Source of the DNA: Isoetes taiwanensis | Lineage: Eukaryota; Streptophyta; Lycopodiopsida; Isoetales; Isoetaceae | Direction: 5' to 3' | NCBI GenBank assembly: GCA_021234155.1 | Contig: JAJEKV010000023.1 | Location: forward strand, 8,813,141 to 8,877,140 | DNA length: 64,000 nt | Shown here: in pieces, positions 1-12,839 of the stretch | Layout of the letters: each line of letters begins with the position of its first letter | Position numbering within the stretch: position 1 is the stretch's first letter | Made by a program: the position numbers and the translations under genes | The notes under the pieces: model-generated | Seen by the model: only the letters and a program-made list of their open reading frames with translations | Told to the model about the DNA's origin: nothing | Databases searched by the model: none

Positions 1-1064
1 CATCGAGGACGCTGGGACACAAGCATTTGTCAGACATCCCAATATCTTGCATTACAATTTCTACACAGTGATAATTTCTACAGAACGACCACAACACTGT
101 GAATGAAAACTCTGTCAAATAGAAATATCGGAATCAAGAAAATGAACTTTGTGTTCCCATGTTTGGGGCCCAAGACTATCTCCTATGCTCTATATTGATT
201 TACAGGAGCAACTCAAAAGTAAAATGTAAAACAACACAAAATTATCTCTACAAAATAGACCAGCGCCATGTTTAATACATCTGCACTAGATATTTATTAT
301 CATATACATACTATGATGAACATACAAAACTTATTTGCTGCAATAGAATGTAAATATTCATCATCTTACATTGTAATTAGACACAGCTTCCCACAATTGC
401 TACGTTGTCCAAGTACAGATACACAATTGAGTTACTACTAAGAGCTTTTCCATAGACACCAAAGGACTCTGATACGACAGCACCATTAGAATCTTTCACT
501 TTAACACCAGCGCTCTCAAAAGACCAAGGCGAGCTTGAGGAGTATCTAACTTTAGCAGCGCAAACGTTTTTGAAACAGGGCTGGTTTTGGAATTATCGGC
601 ATAACAATGTGATCTTCTTTGGTTGATCTTTGCGCGGCAGATGAAGCAAACAACAGCATCAAGAGCATCATTATGCTACTACCAGATAATGTTAACAATG
701 CCATGTTTCTCCCAAGATGATGCAAATCAAGCATTGGTTGCATCTATATATCTTGTTTCCAATGCATTATGGACGTGGCATGCATGCATAGTAGACTTTT
801 CGCATGCATGCATGCATGGTTTCGTAACCCTCCATATTTATCACTTTATCTCGAATCATCCATTAGGTTTCCAATGAAGATTCTAGACGATCAAATGCCT
901 TTGTTTTTTTGCAAAAAAACTATTGTCCGTCGGATTTGCAATCTTCCTTCTCTAGTTTGCTCTTTCTCACCAATTTGGGCTTACTCGGGAAGGAGCTGCC
1001 ATTTTTTTGTTGCCCAGAGATGTCTTTTTGCATGCACTTACTGAAATATATCGGTGAAGCCAAC
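1..1064. other. AT-rich stretch behind gag, no gene seen
   Basis: This lies 3' of the minus-strand gag ORF, where protease and pol would be expected. I see no aspartic protease, reverse transcriptase, RNase H or integrase motif on either strand. A short minus-strand reading frame (about 920-1177) is rich in K and S with a few C and could be a decayed gag tail. A (GCAT)n palindromic patch lies at 780-816. No copy of the LTR at 6454-7715 is visible here, so the 3' end of the element is off-window or lost. Confidence 0.5.
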
Positions 1065-2143
1065 TTAGAGCATGGTGAACTGTAGATACCTTTGAGTTTT
1101 TGTCGTAGATTCCTCAACAAGCTTATATGAGCAACACGAAGATAGCATATCCTTCTTAGTTCTGAGATTGCCTCCATTTATACATGCTTTGAGGCAACTC
1201 AGACTTCTCTTTGGCTTTAAAACCTGCCACCCTTGATATTGCCCTGTTGATTTACCCTTGAAGGCCGACTGTTTCTCACCTGGAGTTGCTGGAGCTTCTT
1301 CCAAGCTTATGGCTTTATCCTCGGCTTCTGCCACTGACTTTGGGTTGATTGCTCGGACTAGCCTTTTGATATTGCTGTTCAATCCCTCAATGTAGGTTTC
1401 AACTGCTTGCCTTTCCGAAACTCCGGGAACATGGAGCCTGAGCCGCATGAATTCCTCTGTGTACTTTGCTACTGACAAGGTACCCTGGTTCAATCTGTAG
1501 AATTGCTGGATCTGCCTGCTAGTATGTGATCTTGGCACATAATGTTTGCGAAAGGCCTTGCTGAAGGTCTTGAATCTGCAATTGTTCCTTCTTAGCTTAT
1601 TGGACTTTGCATAGCCTTTCCACCAAATCCTAGCTACTCCTATTAAGTTGGTTGTAGCAACTTTCCCTATATCTTTATCCTTCATGCCATAAGAATTGCC
1701 AAACTCTTCCATCTCGTCAAGCCAGGCTTCTGCCTCCATACCTGACCTGTCCTTCCCTGAGAACTGACCGAGCTAGTCTTCCACACATTGCTCATAGCAC
1801 TGTCAACCTTTTTCTGATAGTCATCTGTTTTCCTTGCCCTTTTTCTTGTCTGAGGTGTATCGTACTGACTGTCGGAGCTAAGACTGTCCTCACTGGAAGA
1901 GCTATCTGATGTGCTGGAGCTAGACGATGATGGGCTCCTAGTTCTCCTTTTTCTTTTCCTGTCCCTGACATTTCCCTGATTGTCTTGCCCCTCCGGCTGT
2001 GGGCCTTCCTCAATGCCTTGCTGAGGTAGTGGTGGTGCAGATGCATATTCTTGGGCATTCATCAGTGGGGTGGCCCGATGAATCAGCTGATGCATTTGGT
2101 TCCTCATCTGGGTAAGTCTCGCGTTGATTGATTCCACCGTCAT
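1065..2143 (-). pseudogene. Retrotransposon Gag, split by a frameshift
   Basis: This is the structural (capsid/nucleocapsid) protein of an LTR retrotransposon, which would package element RNA in the cytoplasm. The upstream part (2143 to about 1770) starts at an ATG and has a serine/arginine-rich low-complexity stretch. The downstream part (from about 1770 to 1065) shows the Retrotrans_gag core: AEAWLDEME, an RIWWKGY motif, F..F...F spacing, QGTLSVAKYTEEF and a final GLN/ARAI region. The two parts are in different frames, and joining them needs one shift near 1765-1780. No clean CCHC zinc knuckle follows; the tail holds scattered cysteines only. It is the last ORF of the H3-bearing element on the same strand. 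The family call is strong; that it is inactive is inferred from the frameshift. Confidence 0.82.
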
Positions 2144-2468
2144 TTCCTCGTTGTTGTCGTCTTGCTCACGTCCAAATACGTTTCTGGGTACCCACTGGTG
2201 ATGTCGGCCCTAGCCTTGAGAACCTGAGCCGATGTTCCTTGCTGCAAGGATTGATCATCAATGCTTGTTATTTAGGTTACTCATCAATCATACCTATTTA
2301 TAATTAAATTATTGTTAGGTACAAAAGAAATCATGTGAAAATTCCACTTACAAGTCAAGATCATAATAAGTCATTAATATTTAGAAATACATTTCATGGA
2401 ATACATGATAGTATCTAAAAGGAAAATTATTCAATGCAATTTAAATGACAACAAGGCAAATTTTTCCA
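2144..2468. other. Spacer between accessory ORF and gag
   Basis: The part next to gag (2144-2225) stays open upstream of the gag ATG and is acidic when translated, so gag may start further upstream. The rest (2270-2460) is AT-rich with no motif I recognise. Confidence 0.4.
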
Positions 2469-3140
2469 TCATCGATGCCCCTTCATGGTCTTGAAGAAGT
2501 TCTTGACGTTCTTGAGTCGTAGCCCTTTGCCGACATTCTGCAAGATCCTTGCGGCCGATCCCCCTTCAAGTGCTCTCGCCATCTGGGGTGCAGGGAGTTC
2601 GGGTGCTGTCGCCGCCACTACTGACAAATGTGCGTCCCTGAGGTGGCCCCTGGCGAAGTCGAGGCAGTGAAGAGGTACGGATCTCTTGAAAAGGATGACA
2701 TAATCCAATCCGTAGTCTAGGCTGGCGTGCTGCCCAAAGCCAGAGAGGGCTATGAGGAGCGCGACAGACTCTTCTCCTCTTGGGCTGAACTCCTTGTGGA
2801 ATACTATCATCTGCCCTTGGCTAAGAGCTGGAAGATAGTATCGAAGCGCCTTACCCTTCCCCGCGATGTTGGAACCTGTGCCTCTTCTGCCAGCTGCTTC
2901 CCCATAGGTTTCCAGTGCGATGAAGTCTTCGTGGTCCCTCCACATGGTAGTTGCGTTCTCCAGGTTGATGTTGGCGTGTGCCTGGCGCGAACTCCTGGAA
3001 CGAACTGGTCAGCTGGAGCTTGGGTCTCTTCCTGGCTTATACAATCTGCTTTGTATCTGCTGGAACTCCTCCTCTGGGATGACAGGTTCTTGTTGTCGAT
3101 AGATCTCCCTTATCTGCTGGTAGGCTTCTATATCTGACAT
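2469..3140 (-). CDS. Accessory ORF of the H3-bearing element, with an in-frame TGA
   Basis: I do not recognise this protein. The reading frame opens at an ATG (3140-3138) that lies inside the last codons of the preceding 285-residue ORF, in another frame, so the two overlap by 13 nt. After 43 codons there is one TGA (3011-3009), then the same frame continues for 179 more codons to 2469. If TGA is read through the product is about 223 residues; otherwise translation could restart at the ATG at about 2945 (158 residues). The first part is rich in Q and E; the second part has a hydrophobic core segment and a basic C-terminus (RLKNVKNFFKTMKGHR). There is no transmembrane segment or known catalytic motif. 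Its position between the H3-like ORF and gag on the same strand suggests an element-encoded accessory protein. The TGA may be a simple decay mutation. Confidence 0.5.
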
Positions 3141-3985
3141 TGTCTGCCCGGCGTATGAGTGTCGCTCCGATAACTCCCTTGGAAATTCCTGGTAGGAGTA
3201 GTCGATGAGTCGCTGCCCTGCTCTTGTGCGATTAAGCCTAAGAGCTCATCAATCCTGAGGCCTTCTTCTTGGCAATAGGGAAGGTTGATGATGTCGTTGG
3301 CCAAGATGTTCTCCTCGCCGTTGATGATCACTAGAGAAAGGGCCGTGATGCCGATTGGCGGTTCAAAATCTCGCCTTAACGTGCCTTCTTGCCGGGCTAT
3401 TTGCCTCTCCATCCTCCTTGCTTCTCTCATCTCCCAATTTGCGTTCTCCTCCCCTTCTTGCTCGTAATCTTGCTCAATCTGCAGCATAGGTGTTCCTGAG
3501 GTGGAGCCGTAGTACTCGTATTTTGAAGACTCGATCTCGTGGATGATGATCTGTTCCCTTCGGGTGTCGAGAGGTGCCAAATCTAAAGGTTGAATTGAGG
3601 GCTCACCTGCCTTATTAATTGACTTATACTGCATGAACAAGGCTAGGGCTGCAGGGGCTGAAAGGTATCGGTGCCTATTATGCTTGCAGGTCATGTAGTT
3701 AGGCATGGGTCTAGTCCTATCCCACATCTTGCTTTTGGATCCTCCCCCTAAGGTTTGGCTAAGCGAATCTAGGGATACCAATTTCCCTCCCCTAGGCGGC
3801 AAGCTAACTTCCCAGGGTAGGACCTGCTGGTCATATTGGCAGATGATATCAGTGTAATAGGGAATTCTAGTGAATGTTGCATGGAGGTCAAAGAGGTGGT
3901 CAAAGACATGGAAGGCTTGCTCGGCAGGAAAATCACGGATATGGTTGGCAGCATCATACCATCTAACAAAGCTTGAGGGCGCCAT
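3128..3985 (-). CDS. 285-residue accessory ORF of the H3-bearing element, function unknown
   Basis: This is an intact ORF with an ATG at 3985 and no stop until 3128. I do not recognise a family. The N-terminal half (residues about 1-130) is globular-looking with aromatic and histidine residues (RWYDAANHIRDF, DHLFDLHATF). The middle (about 165-205) is charged and probably coiled (EQDYEQEGEENANWEMREARRMERQIARQ). A hydrophobic patch follows near ITALSLVIINGEENIL, then an S/T-rich C-terminus. A good TATA box lies about 110 nt upstream on the same strand, so it may have its own transcript. The next ORF begins inside its end. It lies between the H3-like ORF and gag, all on one strand. Alternatives are a captured host gene or a diverged capsid-like domain. 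Confidence 0.55.
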   Translation of the reverse strand: MAPSSFVRWYDAANHIRDFPAEQAFHVFDHLFDLHATFTRIPYYTDIICQYDQQVLPWEVSLPPRGGKLVSLDSLSQTLGGGSKSKMWDRTRPMPNYMTCKHNRHRYLSAPAALALFMQYKSINKAGEPSIQPLDLAPLDTRREQIIIHEIESSKYEYYGSTSGTPMLQIEQDYEQEGEENANWEMREARRMERQIARQEGTLRRDFEPPIGITALSLVIINGEENILANDIINLPYCQEEGLRIDELLGLIAQEQGSDSSTTPTRNFQGSYRSDTHTPGRQCQI

Positions 3986-4103: not shown

Positions 4104-4280
4104 GGCTAAGGTCTGCCTCGGGTTCCGTGCACAAGGGTTCTTGATGGGAAAAACTTTTGTTCAAGGGCTATGGATGTCCAAATGAGCTACCATGAAGTGC
4201 AAATCTAAGCAAAACAAGGCAAGAAACACTACATGGCAGGTTGTTGGATTAAATTTGGTCAAATTTGGCAAAAAAGGGCC

Positions 4281-4555
4281 AAATCGGAAGGGTTCGCGCG
4301 AAATCGCGTTCCGAAGCGGCCAGAAGTGGTTTTGGCGCGGACCCTTCCGGTTTCGCAATTTTGAAGCTAATTTGACGAATTTTTGAGGTTTGGAAGTCCT
4401 ATCATGACTAACTGATCAATTCTAGCCTAGCTTGCACTTTTCCTGAGCAAAATTGGCATCCAGAAGACCAAATCGGAAGGGTTCGCGCGAAATCGCCTTC
4501 CGAGGCGCTTGGAAGTGGTTTTGGCGCAGACCCTTCCGGTTTCGCCAATTTTGAT
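4281..4555. repeat. Two direct copies of a hairpin-forming unit
   Basis: Two units of about 86 bp (4281-4366 and 4470-4555) differ at only a few positions and are spaced 189 bp apart. Each starts with CGGAAGGGT and ends with ACCCTTCCG, so each can fold back on itself, and each contains CpG-rich cores (TTCGCGCGAAATCGC). They lie between the end of the H3-like ORF and the TATA box of the next ORF, so they fall in the 3' UTR of the former or the upstream region of the latter. A related core, AAACCCTTCC, recurs at 39.4 and 42.9-43.35 kb. Confidence 0.75.
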
Positions 4556-4757: not shown

Positions 4758-5891
4758 TCAAGGGTACTCCTTGCAGATTCCCCGTGCCAAATGGAGATCC
4801 TTGGGCATTACAGTCACCCTTTTGGCATGGATTGCGCATAAGTTCCCTTCTTCAAAAAGTTGGGTCAGTTCCGCCTCGGCTGCCACTTGCAGGACCCGTG
4901 TCGTCAATGATGTTACCCTATAGTCGGTGACGAACTCCTGCATGACTTCTCGCATCAGGCGCTCGAAAGGAGCCTTCCTGATCAGGAGATTAGTGCACTG
5001 CTGAAAGTGCCTAATCTCCCGAAAAACACGGGCGTGCCGAGAATTAGGCCCATGATGGACCTTCTTCGGCTTTTCAGGACGTGCAAGTGGCGGCTTCGGC
5101 TGGTTCTTCTTCGGCTGGCCGCCTTTGACGTAGCGCTCCACATTCTGCCTGCAATACCAGTCATTGTACCTCGTCCAGCGATGAAGGTACTCCTGGTACG
5201 CCTTCAGCTTGTGCTTAAATAGGCGCTCCTCGCGGAGCGCGAATGGCCGCTCACCCACCTTCTGCTTCTTGACTACCTTCTGTGGCTTAGGCCACTTCGG
5301 GTAGGGTGGGCGTGCGTTGGGGTCTGAGGATTTCCCAACGACTTTGTCTCCCTCCTCGGCTTCCTCCTCTGCTTCCTCCTCATCATCTCCTCCTCCTTCT
5401 CGCTCTTCCTCCTCATGCGAGGGAGGCTCCTCGATCACGACGGTCCCTCGGGGCCTATCGTTCCTCCTCTTCGTTCTCCGCTCCTTCTTCCTAAACTCCC
5501 TCTCCCTCTTCTTTCTTGCCGCCTCCTCTTCTGGCCACTCCGCCACTTTGTTCTTGCCCTTCTTCTTCACTGACGAAGGGCCCGCCTCATGGGTCTGGTG
5601 CTGCGGCTGCTCTTGGTCGTCCTGCTGCTCTTCTTCCCGGCCGGAGAGGTTACCTACATTCTCTGTTTCGCCGGTCCGCTGAGTCTGGGCCAACGAGGAA
5701 CTGCTGCTGCTGCTAGGGCTGCCCTCCTCTGACGGGTGGAAGGTGTCGTCGGTGGAGGAAAACACCTCTTCACCTGGCTTCGGTCGAAGGTGAGGCGGGA
5801 TCTGCTTCGTGTGACGACCCGCTGCTACCTGCGCCATCGAAAGTGTAGGTCTCTCACCAAACTTCCTGGCTGTCTGCTTGGTGCGCACCAT
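4758..5891 (-). CDS. Histone H3-like protein with long tail insertion, carried by an LTR retroelement
   Basis: The 377-residue ORF begins [10 protein letters not shown], which is the H3 tail with only residue 1 changed (A to V). From residue 11 it leaves H3 and runs through a long spacer: S-rich (about 55-66), acidic or Q-rich (85-100), basic KKR blocks (108-148), very acidic (155-181), then a lysine-rich and aromatic block (195-255). H3 similarity resumes at about residue 277 (KKVHH) and runs to the end: [43 protein letters not shown]. By hand alignment about 53 of 89 fold positions match canonical H3. There is no loop-1 insertion, so it is not CENH3-like. H3 S10 is F, K79 is V; C110 and H113 are kept. 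I chose the ATG at 5891 because it places the tail at the N-terminus; an upstream ATG at 6020 would add 43 residues. The LTR and PBS lie just upstream on the same strand. A role in chromatin is inferred. Confidence 0.9.
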
Positions 5892-6440
5892 ATTTAACGG
5901 TCTAAGAAATGGATGACGTAAGGCTGAGCAAGAGAGATAAGGTGGAGGAAAGAGTTGGGGGGGAAATGAGGTGGCAAGGATATTCAAAAGGAGGGTCCCC
6001 TGGGAATGTTCTCCTACCATTAATAGGCCTACTTATTAGCCCCCCTTATTAATTACTCCAGTTTACTTAATTATTAATATGTACTTAATACAGTATTATA
6101 TTAAAATTTCGAATTTTTCCTAATTGTTTGAAGTGTTAATTATGAATTTGCGCCATTTTTCACCCAGTCTCGGATTGGCATGATTCTTTGACCCATTTTA
6201 GGTGAAATTTGATGCAGATGCATAATTTTCACTCCAATTTTACTAGAATGTTAATTTGACTCATTTTTTTCCATCATCTAACAACTTAGCCTATTCTTAC
6301 GGACCCACTACCTAGGAGAAAAAAATTTTCCACTATTTTCGAGGTTCCATGGTGGAAATTTTCATTTCGCACCCTATTAGGCCTGTTAGACTACTTTCCT
6401 GGTTATGGTCAGTGCTAGTTCCTGGTCAACCAAGAACATC
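5892..6440 (-). other. Leader between primer-binding site and H3-like ORF
   Basis: This untranslated leader lies between the PBS and the H3-like ATG. It is AT-rich near 6050-6130, then C- and T-rich on the minus strand just before the ATG. A TGACGT/ACGTCA element lies at 5914-5919, about 23 nt before the ATG. The same core is part of the LTR tip. ACGTCA is the core of the plant histone-gene hexamer motif, but a six-base match is weak evidence. Confidence 0.4.
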
Positions 6441-6452
6441 GCTCTGATACCA
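6441..6452 (-). other. Primer-binding site for initiator tRNA-Met
   Basis: The minus strand reads TGGTATCAGAGC, the complement of the 3' end of plant initiator tRNA-Met and the usual PBS of plant LTR retrotransposons. It begins one base inside the LTR end at 6454, which fixes the element on the minus strand and marks the left edge of the 5' LTR. Confidence 0.9.
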
Positions 6453-6453
6453 T

Positions 6454-7715
6454 TGTGACGCTCCCTGCTAAACATACGGCACCCGGCCGTACACTCGGCA
6501 GGAAATCCCCCATCCAGTCCTTCAACCACACGGGCCCTCCGTCTATCCCGCACTCTGAGATGATCGTAGTGCGGGAAGGGGACACGAAGGTGTCTTGCGT
6601 GCCCTTCCCCTATGGGCTCCTATCACAGCGGAAGCACAAACATCGTCAGAACTAGCAATACAATACAACATACTACCTCGAAGGGTAGCTCATCCACAAA
6701 TCCCTAGGTGCAAAGAACATAATCATATGCCATAAAACATGAGAGCTCCTACCCGTGGTTCCGACACGTAAGGAAGTCGACTGACTGGATAGGCCTCAAG
6801 ATAGAGCAGACCGAGTCATAACAATGGCGGGGCTGGCATAAGACAATGGCTAGGATTGACCACTCCATCCGCCCCTCCTGTGCATACTTTGCAGATGGGC
6901 TCCATCAGGCTCTGGCATGACTCTAGCCTTCCGGATACGCAATCCCATGGCATCACCCATCGGGACTACTCCAGGTTGCATCTCCCTGGTCCGTCGAGGC
7001 AGGAAGGGTTGCATCTCCCCCTCCCGGGATCTAGAGACTCCTCGGGCGGCTAGAGAATCGTGGCGACACACGATTCGTACCCGACTGAACCCCCCAAAAC
7101 AAGAGCCAAGCTGACACTTGCAACTCTTGAGAGGCAGGGCGGCACCATTGCCCCAGGAGGTGTCGGACCCATGCTCGGCCCACACGAAGTGACCGACCAT
7201 AAGCCTAGCTCACTATGGGATCTCCCGTAGCCCCCACTCGGCAGGGATCCTCCCTCCGCCGTTGTGTAGTGCTGAGTCAGTGCTGAGTCTCCACCTACCT
7301 GCTCCAGAAGCGCTTCCTCCCATCCCTGGTGTCTCCATTGCTTCTTGACGGGGTCGAGGTCGTGCTCCCTCTATGATCATACGCACACTTCGGGGGCTGT
7401 TGCAGCAGGCTATGCTACGATGAACGATGCTCGAAACGGGGTTTCGAGCGCGTAGGTGAGTGTTCAGGTGCTAGAGTCAGGGAAAGACGTCTAGGGTTAG
7501 GGTTTGAGCCAATATATGGGGCCATGTGGCGGTAGCCCAATAGGATAAGGCCATGTGGAAATGGGCCTTATCCAAAGGTTATCTAAGTTAAACCATTAAC
7601 TTAGATATGTGCCCCTTGCCACTTCAAAGGTATACAAGGCTACTTTTGTAGACTTGTATGGTGACGGGTCCAGGAATATACATATTTATGGCGTATATTC
7701 CCTTGGGACGTCACA
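6454..7715 (-). mobile_element. 5' LTR of the H3-bearing retroelement
   Basis: The segment is bounded by TGTGACG (6454-6460) and CGTCACA (7709-7715), a 7-bp terminal inverted repeat with the standard TG...CA ends, length 1262 bp. The PBS follows directly on the minus strand. The LTR is GC-richer than its flanks and holds no convincing ORF. A weak TATA-like CCATATATTGG lies near 7510-7520 on the minus strand. The partner LTR is not in the window, so a target-site duplication cannot be tested; the outer flank begins ccacg. Confidence 0.8.
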
Positions 7716-8049
7716 CCACGGTGTTTGCTAGTGGAGTGAAAACGACGAACTAGATGGTTTATAAGGTGGAGGTAATACCTTGGCCTCTTTCGAACAGCAA
7801 AGAATATACTTGGGTGTGTAATGTTTATGCTGTTTGGTAGAGTGTTTCATATAAAATTGATCAGAGTCTTGCTATGTCGGTTATACAGACTGCTGTGGTT
7901 CCCATGGACGGCCTTGAACTCCATCTTGTGGCAATGAATTCCAAATCAGAAGAGCAGAAGCCATTCTTTTGGGCATTTTTTGTTGCAAAACGGACTAGTT
8001 CCTGTATGTAACTGTTCTTGTTGATCATCTTATTCGATTATATGGCTCA

Positions 8050-8353
8050 TGCGACTGTTGGTTTGAAGCAAATGATGAATTCAAAACAGTGTTACACCCA
8101 AGTGTGTACACATGGATTGCAATTATTGCAGCCCATGCCAACCTTGGCCAAACCCACAGTACCATGAATTTGTATCACAGTATGCAATTATCAGGATTAT
8201 ATAGTATAACAAATACATCTATCTGGTTGTTCTCAAAGCATGCATAGCCACAACAGCTCTTAGCAAAGCAATACTAATTCATGCCTGGGTTATTCTAGTT
8301 GGTCTACAGTATGACATTTTTCTAGAGACCACAATGCCCTGGACTTCGAAGTA
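8050..8353 (+). pseudogene. Pentatricopeptide repeat (PPR) relic
   Basis: PPR proteins bind organellar RNA with tandem 35-residue helical repeats. Here the frame from 8101 reads SVYTWIAIIAAHANLGQ and STMNLYHSMQLSG, and after a one-base frameshift near 8200 it continues YLVVLKACIATTAL, ILIHAWVI and GLQYDIFLE. This is the usual PPR layout: W..II.A....G, A..LY..M...G, Y..VLKAC, IH......G...D.F. The reading ends at TAG at 8351. The frameshift and the lack of neighbouring repeats mark it as a relic. The Copia-type element next to it was inserted only about 160 bp downstream. Confidence 0.75.
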
Positions 8354-8513: not shown

Positions 8514-8757
8514 TGTTATGAAATAGAATTGTGCGGAAAATTGTATTGATATGAGATTAATCAGAGTTAATCAGAGTTAATCCAAATAGCCTGGATTGTG
8601 GCTTTACATAGTGTATGAAGAGGCATGAGTTGCATCTCTTCATGAATGGACACATTCCACATCATCAAGTCCTTTGGCATGGATCGATGACGTGTACAAG
8701 CACAATATCATTTGTGTTTGTTTAGGGAGATTAATCCCTTATTCATTACTGTTAATA
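8514..8757 (-). repeat. 3' LTR of the Copia-type element
   Basis: This 244-bp copy is nearly identical to 12591-12834. It contains two GAGTTAATCA units in tandem. Its low divergence from the partner indicates a fairly recent insertion compared with the other decayed elements in the window. Confidence 0.88.
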
Positions 8758-9004
8758 CTCCCCCTTAATCTTCATGAACAAACCTTTATATAATCTTCTT
8801 CTTGAGATTTTTGTGGCGGCTTCATATCTTGGAGTCTTCATTGCTCCTTTCCATACTTGCAGCTTCATCAATATAAACATTACCACCATAACATGGTCTT
8901 CATCAATATGGGTGCCATCAAGTGTGGGCTTATTCCCAAAATACAAGTTAGATGCCACTAGGGTTGTGGACTTAACTTCATAAGCTGCAATACTTGAATT
9001 TATT

Positions 9005-12590: not shown

Positions 12591-12834
12591 TGTTATGAAA
12601 TAGAATTGTGCGGAAAATTGTATTGATATGAGATTAATCAGAGTTAATCAGAGTCAATCCAAATAGCCTGGATTGTGGCTTTACATAGTGTATGAAGAGG
12701 CATGAGTTGCATCTCTTTATGAATGGACACATTCCACATCATCATGTCCTTTGGCATGGATCGATGACGTGTACAAGCACAATATCATTTGTGTTTGTTC
12801 AGGGAGATTAATCCCTTATTCATTACTGTTAATA
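12591..12834 (-). repeat. 5' LTR of the Copia-type element
   Basis: This is the 244-bp partner of the LTR at 8514-8757, with 4 differences by eye. The TSD base block CTATT follows at 12835-12839. Confidence 0.88.
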
Positions 12835-12839
12835 CTATT

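Follow-up and report, generated by a model that had tools for sequence, protein, structure and literature searches.

The genome of Isoetes taiwanensis contains Ty3/gypsy LTR retrotransposons whose first gene encodes a histone H3 fold, and one copy of such an element lies in the window, the whole analyzed stretch of 64,000 nucleotides (C1027:8813141-8877140). A sequence-only reading of this DNA had reported an LTR (6454-7715), a PBS, an H3-like ORF and a gag ORF on the same (-) strand, with the H3-like ORF about 550 bp behind the PBS, and had proposed that they form one element. All of these features were present as reported, and the distance from PBS to ORF was measured at 561 nt. Searches of the genome (1,658,258,908 bases in 1110 contigs) confirmed that the window features are parts of one repeated Ty3/gypsy element. 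Judged from its sequence and divergence, the H3 is an old, selected, element-encoded histone that goes back to an ancient capture of an H3 gene. The features of the window copy are collected in Table 1.

Table 1. Features of the H3-bearing retrotransposon copy in the window, with positions in window coordinates.
Feature	Position	Strand	Remarks
5' LTR	6454..7715	-	1262 bp; TGTGACG...CGTCACA ends
PBS TGGTATCAGAGC	6441..6452	-	at most one mismatch in 26 of 30 loci
ORF1, 377-aa histone H3 fusion protein	4758..5891	-	frame open from 6032; Pfam and PDB matches
H3 N-terminal tail motif M(A/V)RTKQTARK	5862..5891	-	V in the window copy
H3 histone fold, residues 286-377	4761..5036	-	dN/dS and residue retention
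ORF1-ORF2 spacer with two 84-nt direct repeats	4279..4551	-	repeats at 4279-4362 and 4468-4551
ORF2	2469..3985	-	frameshifted in the window copy: 3128-3985 and 2469-3008
gag 5' part	1220..2209	-	N-terminal region, frame 1682-2209; capsid Retrotrans_gag/Ty3_capsid, frame 1065-1772
Unrelated flank, element broken off inside gag	1..1220	.	homology ends at about 1220

The window copy was incomplete. Its homology to the element stopped within gag, and no second (3') LTR was found across the next 10 kb. Compared with other copies, its LTR was short by about 330 bp, the missing segment falling between query positions 826 and 836. The gag ORF at 1065-1739 matched Pfam Retrotrans_gag at 5.9e-18, and ORF2, where intact, encoded about 506 aa. 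The V at the second position of the tail motif was a private change, since almost every other copy that retains this residue has A. The PBS is taken here to be of the initiator tRNA-Met type.

Several further repeats were observed in and around this copy. Each of the 84-nt direct repeats in the spacer can fold as a hairpin, with z values of -2.3 and -4.3 for folded stretches that differ slightly from the repeats themselves. At least one match to the spacer repeat, in some cases a short one, was present behind the H3 ORF in 20 of 30 family-1 loci, and the repeats are possibly an element RNA signal, as far as their sequence suggests. The flank that breaks off the element (locus L039, C1027:8803141-8813140, together with window 1-1040) contained a repeated segment with a short ORF that was weakly ATS3-like (E 0.002, below the Pfam cut-off), and similar ATS3-like frames were located at 7943-8335 and 8957-9310 of L039 and at 377-592 of the window. 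Elsewhere in the window, two 246-nt direct repeats (8514-8759 and 12591-12836) were 98% alike and 4077 nt apart; they might be the ends of another element.

The linkage between the LTR and the H3-like ORF was analyzed across the genome, where all copy counts are lower bounds taken from the best-scoring candidates only. When the 377-aa protein was used as query, the loose first look yielded 22,610 candidates, and the best 109 of them, all at E <= 4e-129, were assigned to family 1; matches in such number rule out a chance resemblance. No in-frame stop was present in 67 of these 109 listed places, and 42 contained stops. The canonical H3 genes were located elsewhere, so the H3-like ORF, with at least 109 genomic places, is not a single host gene. 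The LTR 3' end was found upstream of the H3 ORF in 27 of the 30 fetched loci (the window copy counted), and the sequence-only reading, which would have been refuted had no other copy joined LTR and H3-like ORF, was upheld by this and by a copy with both LTRs. Where a PBS with at most one mismatch lay upstream of the ORF (26 loci), its spacing to the ORF was 561-591 nt in 23. Among the matches listed, ORF2 followed the H3 ORF downstream on the same strand in at least 38 of 109 places and was never found upstream or on the opposite strand, and gag followed in at least 31 of 109, compared to 1 and 1 in the controls. A search with the LTR itself gave 6615 first-look candidates, and 19 of the best 40 lay within 15 kb of a listed H3, ORF2 or gag match.

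These results bear on whether a host H3-like gene had merely received a chance LTR insertion, in which case its link to a retrotransposon would be accidental. The window copy, taken alone, shows a single LTR and would agree with such an event. This explanation was tested and rejected, and it retains practically no credibility against the LTR end common to 27 of 30 loci, the narrow PBS-to-ORF spacing, the number of genomic places, and two copies that retain the LTR pair and are flanked by a target-site duplication (TSD).

The first of these two copies, at C1025:12724151-12737203, was complete and showed the order LTR, PBS, H3-bearing ORF1, ORF2, gag-PR-RT-RH-INT, chromodomain piece, PPT and LTR. 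Its LTRs of 1622 and 1641 bp had 21 mismatches in 1620 aligned bases (1.3%), 19 of which were transitions, and the 5-bp TSD CAGGC was present at both flanks. The PBS was TGGTATCAGAGC, the PPT was AAGGGGGGGAGAA, and the H3 ORF was free of stops. Pfam domains were detected in the order Retrotrans_gag, RVP_2, RVT_1, RT_RNaseH_2, Integrase_H2C2 and SH3_Tf2-1, and a CCHC knuckle was identified by eye. Frame changes and a stop interrupted the pol region; the Pfam search gave no match to the integrase catalytic core in this copy because the frame is broken there.

The second copy, at C908:3250542-3263772, represents family 2. Its LTRs were 96.7% alike, the TSD GCCAC was found on both sides, and it had a PPT and the same PBS as family 1. 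It contained a 485-codon H3 frame (442 aa from the first M), a 470-codon ORF2 and a 1385-codon open gag-pol, as read by eye. Chromo matches were obtained in both copies (2.8e-12 for C1025 and 1.2e-8 for C908), but past INT they lay downstream of a stop or in a different frame, and neither copy encodes an intact protein with this domain. Two TG..CA LTRs, a TSD, a PBS, a PPT, and gag followed by the PR-RT-RH-INT order place these elements in Ty3/gypsy. Another family-1 copy (C982:901533-908938) had lost gag-pol and kept the H3 ORF and, in part, both LTRs; from its structure, it is a possible non-autonomous derivative.

The H3-bearing elements fell into at least three families. In families 2 and 3, ORF1 is longer and has the H3 at its C terminus, ahead of a related ORF2 and gag-pol, and in family 3 (C1034) the PBS, the H3 ORF and the homologs of ORF2 and gag were all on the same strand. 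The position of the H3 ORF between PBS and ORF2 was constant in the three families. A Pfam Histone search of the genome yielded 8704 candidates. Among the best 150, 15 places scored 164-165 bits, and the 12 of these that were fetched were canonical H3. The other 135 places scored lower and had open frames of 108 to 494 aa; eight were fetched, of which seven were frames of 337-494 aa with a C-terminal H3 and one was a 122-aa frame with the fold alone. Family 2 was found at no fewer than 88 places and family 3 at no fewer than 87. Families 2 and 3 and the 135 Histone places formed a union of 247, and addition of the 109 family-1 places gave at least 356 distinct places, counted as matches to the H3-bearing ORF1 or its fold, some of them fragments short of the fold. 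Separately, 72 of the 135 non-canonical H3-fold places were in neither the listed family-2 nor the listed family-3 set, and these may belong to the same families or to further ones.

The ORF2 proteins of families 1 and 2 were related (E 1e-15), which would favour one capture before the two families split. Profile comparison between families by hhalign gave a probability of 99.8 over the fold, but the remainder of the family-1 ORF1 profile did not align with that of families 2 and 3, so that several captures are possible as well. ORF2 and the N-terminal region of ORF1 had no Pfam family over the cut-off and no PDB sequence match at E <= 1, and ORF2 had no relative in IMG/VR. The AlphaFold2 models were poor, with pLDDT of 53.6 for the family-2 ORF1 (12 rows) and 36.4 for ORF2 (8 rows), and Foldseek found no match for the family-2 ORF1 model in PDB at E <= 0.001.

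The identity of the H3 module was confirmed by several comparisons. ORF1 of the window matched Pfam PF00125 Histone at 2.6e-27, and histone H3 chains were its best PDB matches at 3.8e-27. Unlike a compact H3 of 135 residues, in which the tail is joined to the fold without a linker, the protein has 377 aa, and tail and fold are separated by about 240 aa. Majority residues from 13, 10 and 2 sequences of families 1, 2 and 3, respectively, were compared with host H3 over 99 positions, of which 56, 84 and 85 were unchanged. Three residue sets, which we chose from structural knowledge and take to represent the H3-H3' bundle, the DNA contacts and alphaN, were compared as well. The H3-H3' bundle set was kept at 9 of 9 positions in every family, and the DNA-contact set at 10/10, 9/10 and 10/10 in families 1, 2 and 3. 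The alphaN set was kept at 6/7 in families 2 and 3 and at 0/7 in family 1, in which residues 39-45 were all changed. At the alpha2 chaperone site, defined as in the consulted part of PMC9145170, the host SAVL was replaced by LTTR in family 1, FAIL in family 2 and HAIL in family 3.

The tail motif M(A/V)RTKQTARK, including K4 and K9, was kept only by family 1 among the sequences examined, and the family-2 and family-3 proteins examined did not contain ARTKQTARK. Past residue 10, the similarity of the tail was lost: residues 11-60 of one family-1 copy aligned with H3 no better than chance, since 36 of 500 shuffles reached the score. The CENH3 loop 1 is longer than that of H3. An assignment to CENH3 was ruled out by the alignment to host H3, which was ungapped across loop 1 in all three families.

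Selection was estimated by pooled Nei-Gojobori dN/dS. The sequence-only reading had suggested comparing the fold between copies, and this comparison revealed strong constraint. In family 1 (16 of 30 copies, 14 being dropped for stops), dN/dS was 0.19 for both tail and linker, and the fold had a value of 0.041, with a codon bootstrap range of 0.016-0.049 in the first 10 copies. In family 2 (8 copies), the values were 0.092 for the N-terminal part, 0.233 for the linker and 0.047 for the fold, and the single pair of family 3 gave 0.015 for the fold and 0.185 for the rest. Thus, the fold was the most constrained part of ORF1 in all three families (other parts 0.09-0.23), and the restriction to stop-free copies biases these values down equally for every part. 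The median pairwise dN/dS of the family-1 fold was undefined, we think because some pairs are saturated. Synonymous divergence was also saturated when one copy per family was compared with a single host H3 gene. The capture therefore looks old, although differing codon usage may add to this saturation.

Transposable elements often capture host genes, and the H3 could be a passively captured gene (transduplication) that is carried as cargo with no role in the element. The stops in 42 of the 109 listed family-1 places would fit such cargo, as would the H3L gene of a fungal hAT element, which the available part of its report considers possibly to have drifted (PMC3538342). However, fold dN/dS of 0.015-0.047 in three families at saturated divergence from host H3, and an ORF kept in its place between PBS and ORF2 throughout, make mere cargo very improbable.

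A role in chromatin is the reading that we consider somewhat probable: a lineage of Ty3/gypsy elements would carry an old, selected H3-fusion ORF1 that enters chromatin and aids integration or escape from silencing. The ORF1 protein would be made from element RNA, would use its conserved H3 fold to pair with host H4, and would enter nucleosomes or (H3-H4)2 particles. Its faster-evolving part, N-terminal in families 2 and 3 and inserted in family 1, would then be displayed on chromatin, where it might tether element proteins (integrase or Gag) or cDNA and/or dilute repressive tail marks. The outcome would be easier integration or escape from silencing. The sequence-only reading had named marking or packaging of element DNA, steering of integration and interference with silencing as possible roles, and these stay conjectural. 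Since selection was strongest on the surfaces that build the H3-H4 tetramer on DNA, H4 pairing and nucleosome-like entry would be the simplest reading. In family 1, entry into nucleosomes is less sure because the chaperone site is LTTR and alphaN is all changed. With its chaperone site lost, serious alternatives in that family are a different route of deposition and action on the element DNA before integration.

Such action before integration would mean that the H3 module condenses or protects the cDNA, or imports the pre-integration complex via H3-H4 chaperones, and never enters host chromatin. The DNA-contact and H3-H3' residues kept in three families are compatible with it, as is the lost chaperone site of family 1; the available text of PMC9145170 describes Marseillevirus histones that lack the chaperone site and accumulate in viral factories. 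As a general explanation it is nevertheless unlikely, because families 2 and 3 retain alphaN and a near-host chaperone site. We regard as decidedly improbable that ORF1 serves as an anti-silencing decoy, whose altered tail would sequester or poison the enzymes or readers of H3 tail marks. The family-1 tail motif with K4 and K9, followed by nothing alignable above chance, would suit a decoy, as would the absence of ARTKQTARK from the family-2 and family-3 proteins examined, but in family 1 the constraint was strongest on the fold (0.041) and not on the tail (0.19).

Beyond the chromatin role proposed above, a stronger version can be offered tentatively, as a minority view: the core histone might be obligate in the element life cycle, with nucleosomes of the element's own H3 on element DNA or on targets, and the fused N-terminal region and the chromodomain integrase would read and write the element's own chromatin state. 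In family 1, the ARTKQTARK tail made by the element could itself be read by the chromodomain of its integrase.

Core histones are indispensable to the host, and chromatin silencing is normally directed at transposons. An element-encoded H3 under selection on its nucleosome-building surfaces implies that mobile elements can use their own histone to act on chromatin, and the sequence evidence suggests that H3-encoding retrotransposons may act directly on host chromatin. This opens the questions of histone variants as tools in the conflict over transposon silencing, and of element-made nucleosomes that steer integration or escape. For annotation, hundreds of H3-like frames in the I. taiwanensis genome look like transposon genes and not like host H3 variants.

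No histone-bearing LTR retrotransposon was found in the literature (open-licence PMC full texts, preprints excluded). In the available parts of the sources, the word "histone" was absent from the main texts of two Isoetes genome papers (one is PMC8566536) and from a review of additional ORFs in plant LTR elements (PMC7264820), and a review of viral histones contained no word starting with retrotranspos- (PMC9145170). H3 in a transposable element is not without precedent, because a hAT DNA transposon of Pyrenophora tritici-repentis has the H3-like gene H3L, which its report describes, in the part available, as 26 very similar recent copies that are possibly drifting (PMC3538342). What appears new is that H3 forms part of the first gene in a retrotransposon lineage that is old, under selection and divided into several families.

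The H3L element likewise has its H3-like gene beside another ORF without an assigned function, according to the same part of the report (PMC3538342). It is a fungal DNA transposon, whereas the Isoetes elements are plant LTR retrotransposons of several old families with a strongly selected fold. Transduplication of the H3L type, in a DNA transposon with terminal inverted repeats, was ruled out for Isoetes by the LTRs, PBS and gag-pol. Additional ORFs are also known in other plant LTR elements, as the accessible portion of PMC7264820 reports, and Gypsy elements of orchids carry an ORF for an AlkB m6A demethylase (available part of PMC9289625). There, too, an additional ORF with a cellular domain was acquired by a plant Ty3/gypsy lineage and has been retained. 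They differ in encoding an RNA-acting enzyme in another element lineage, and the Isoetes elements encode a core histone.

Single viral H3 proteins (in xenomavirus, phycodnavirus and others) and a bracovirus H4 are known from the consulted part of PMC9145170. They are likewise single core histones encoded by parasites, some with an extended or altered N-terminal tail. In contrast to these DNA viruses or virus-derived systems, the Isoetes elements are retrotransposons, and the family-1 fold (56/99) is more diverged from the host than the single viral H3s (73-87% in that source). In element structure, the likeness is to chromoviruses, whose plant clades are treated in PMC3350952 (as far as available): the LTRs, the 5-bp TSD, the PBS, the PPT, gag and the PR-RT-RH-INT order are the same, and both have a chromodomain piece that follows the C-terminal region of the integrase. 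Compared to chromoviruses, the Isoetes elements add the H3-bearing ORF1 and ORF2 between PBS and gag.
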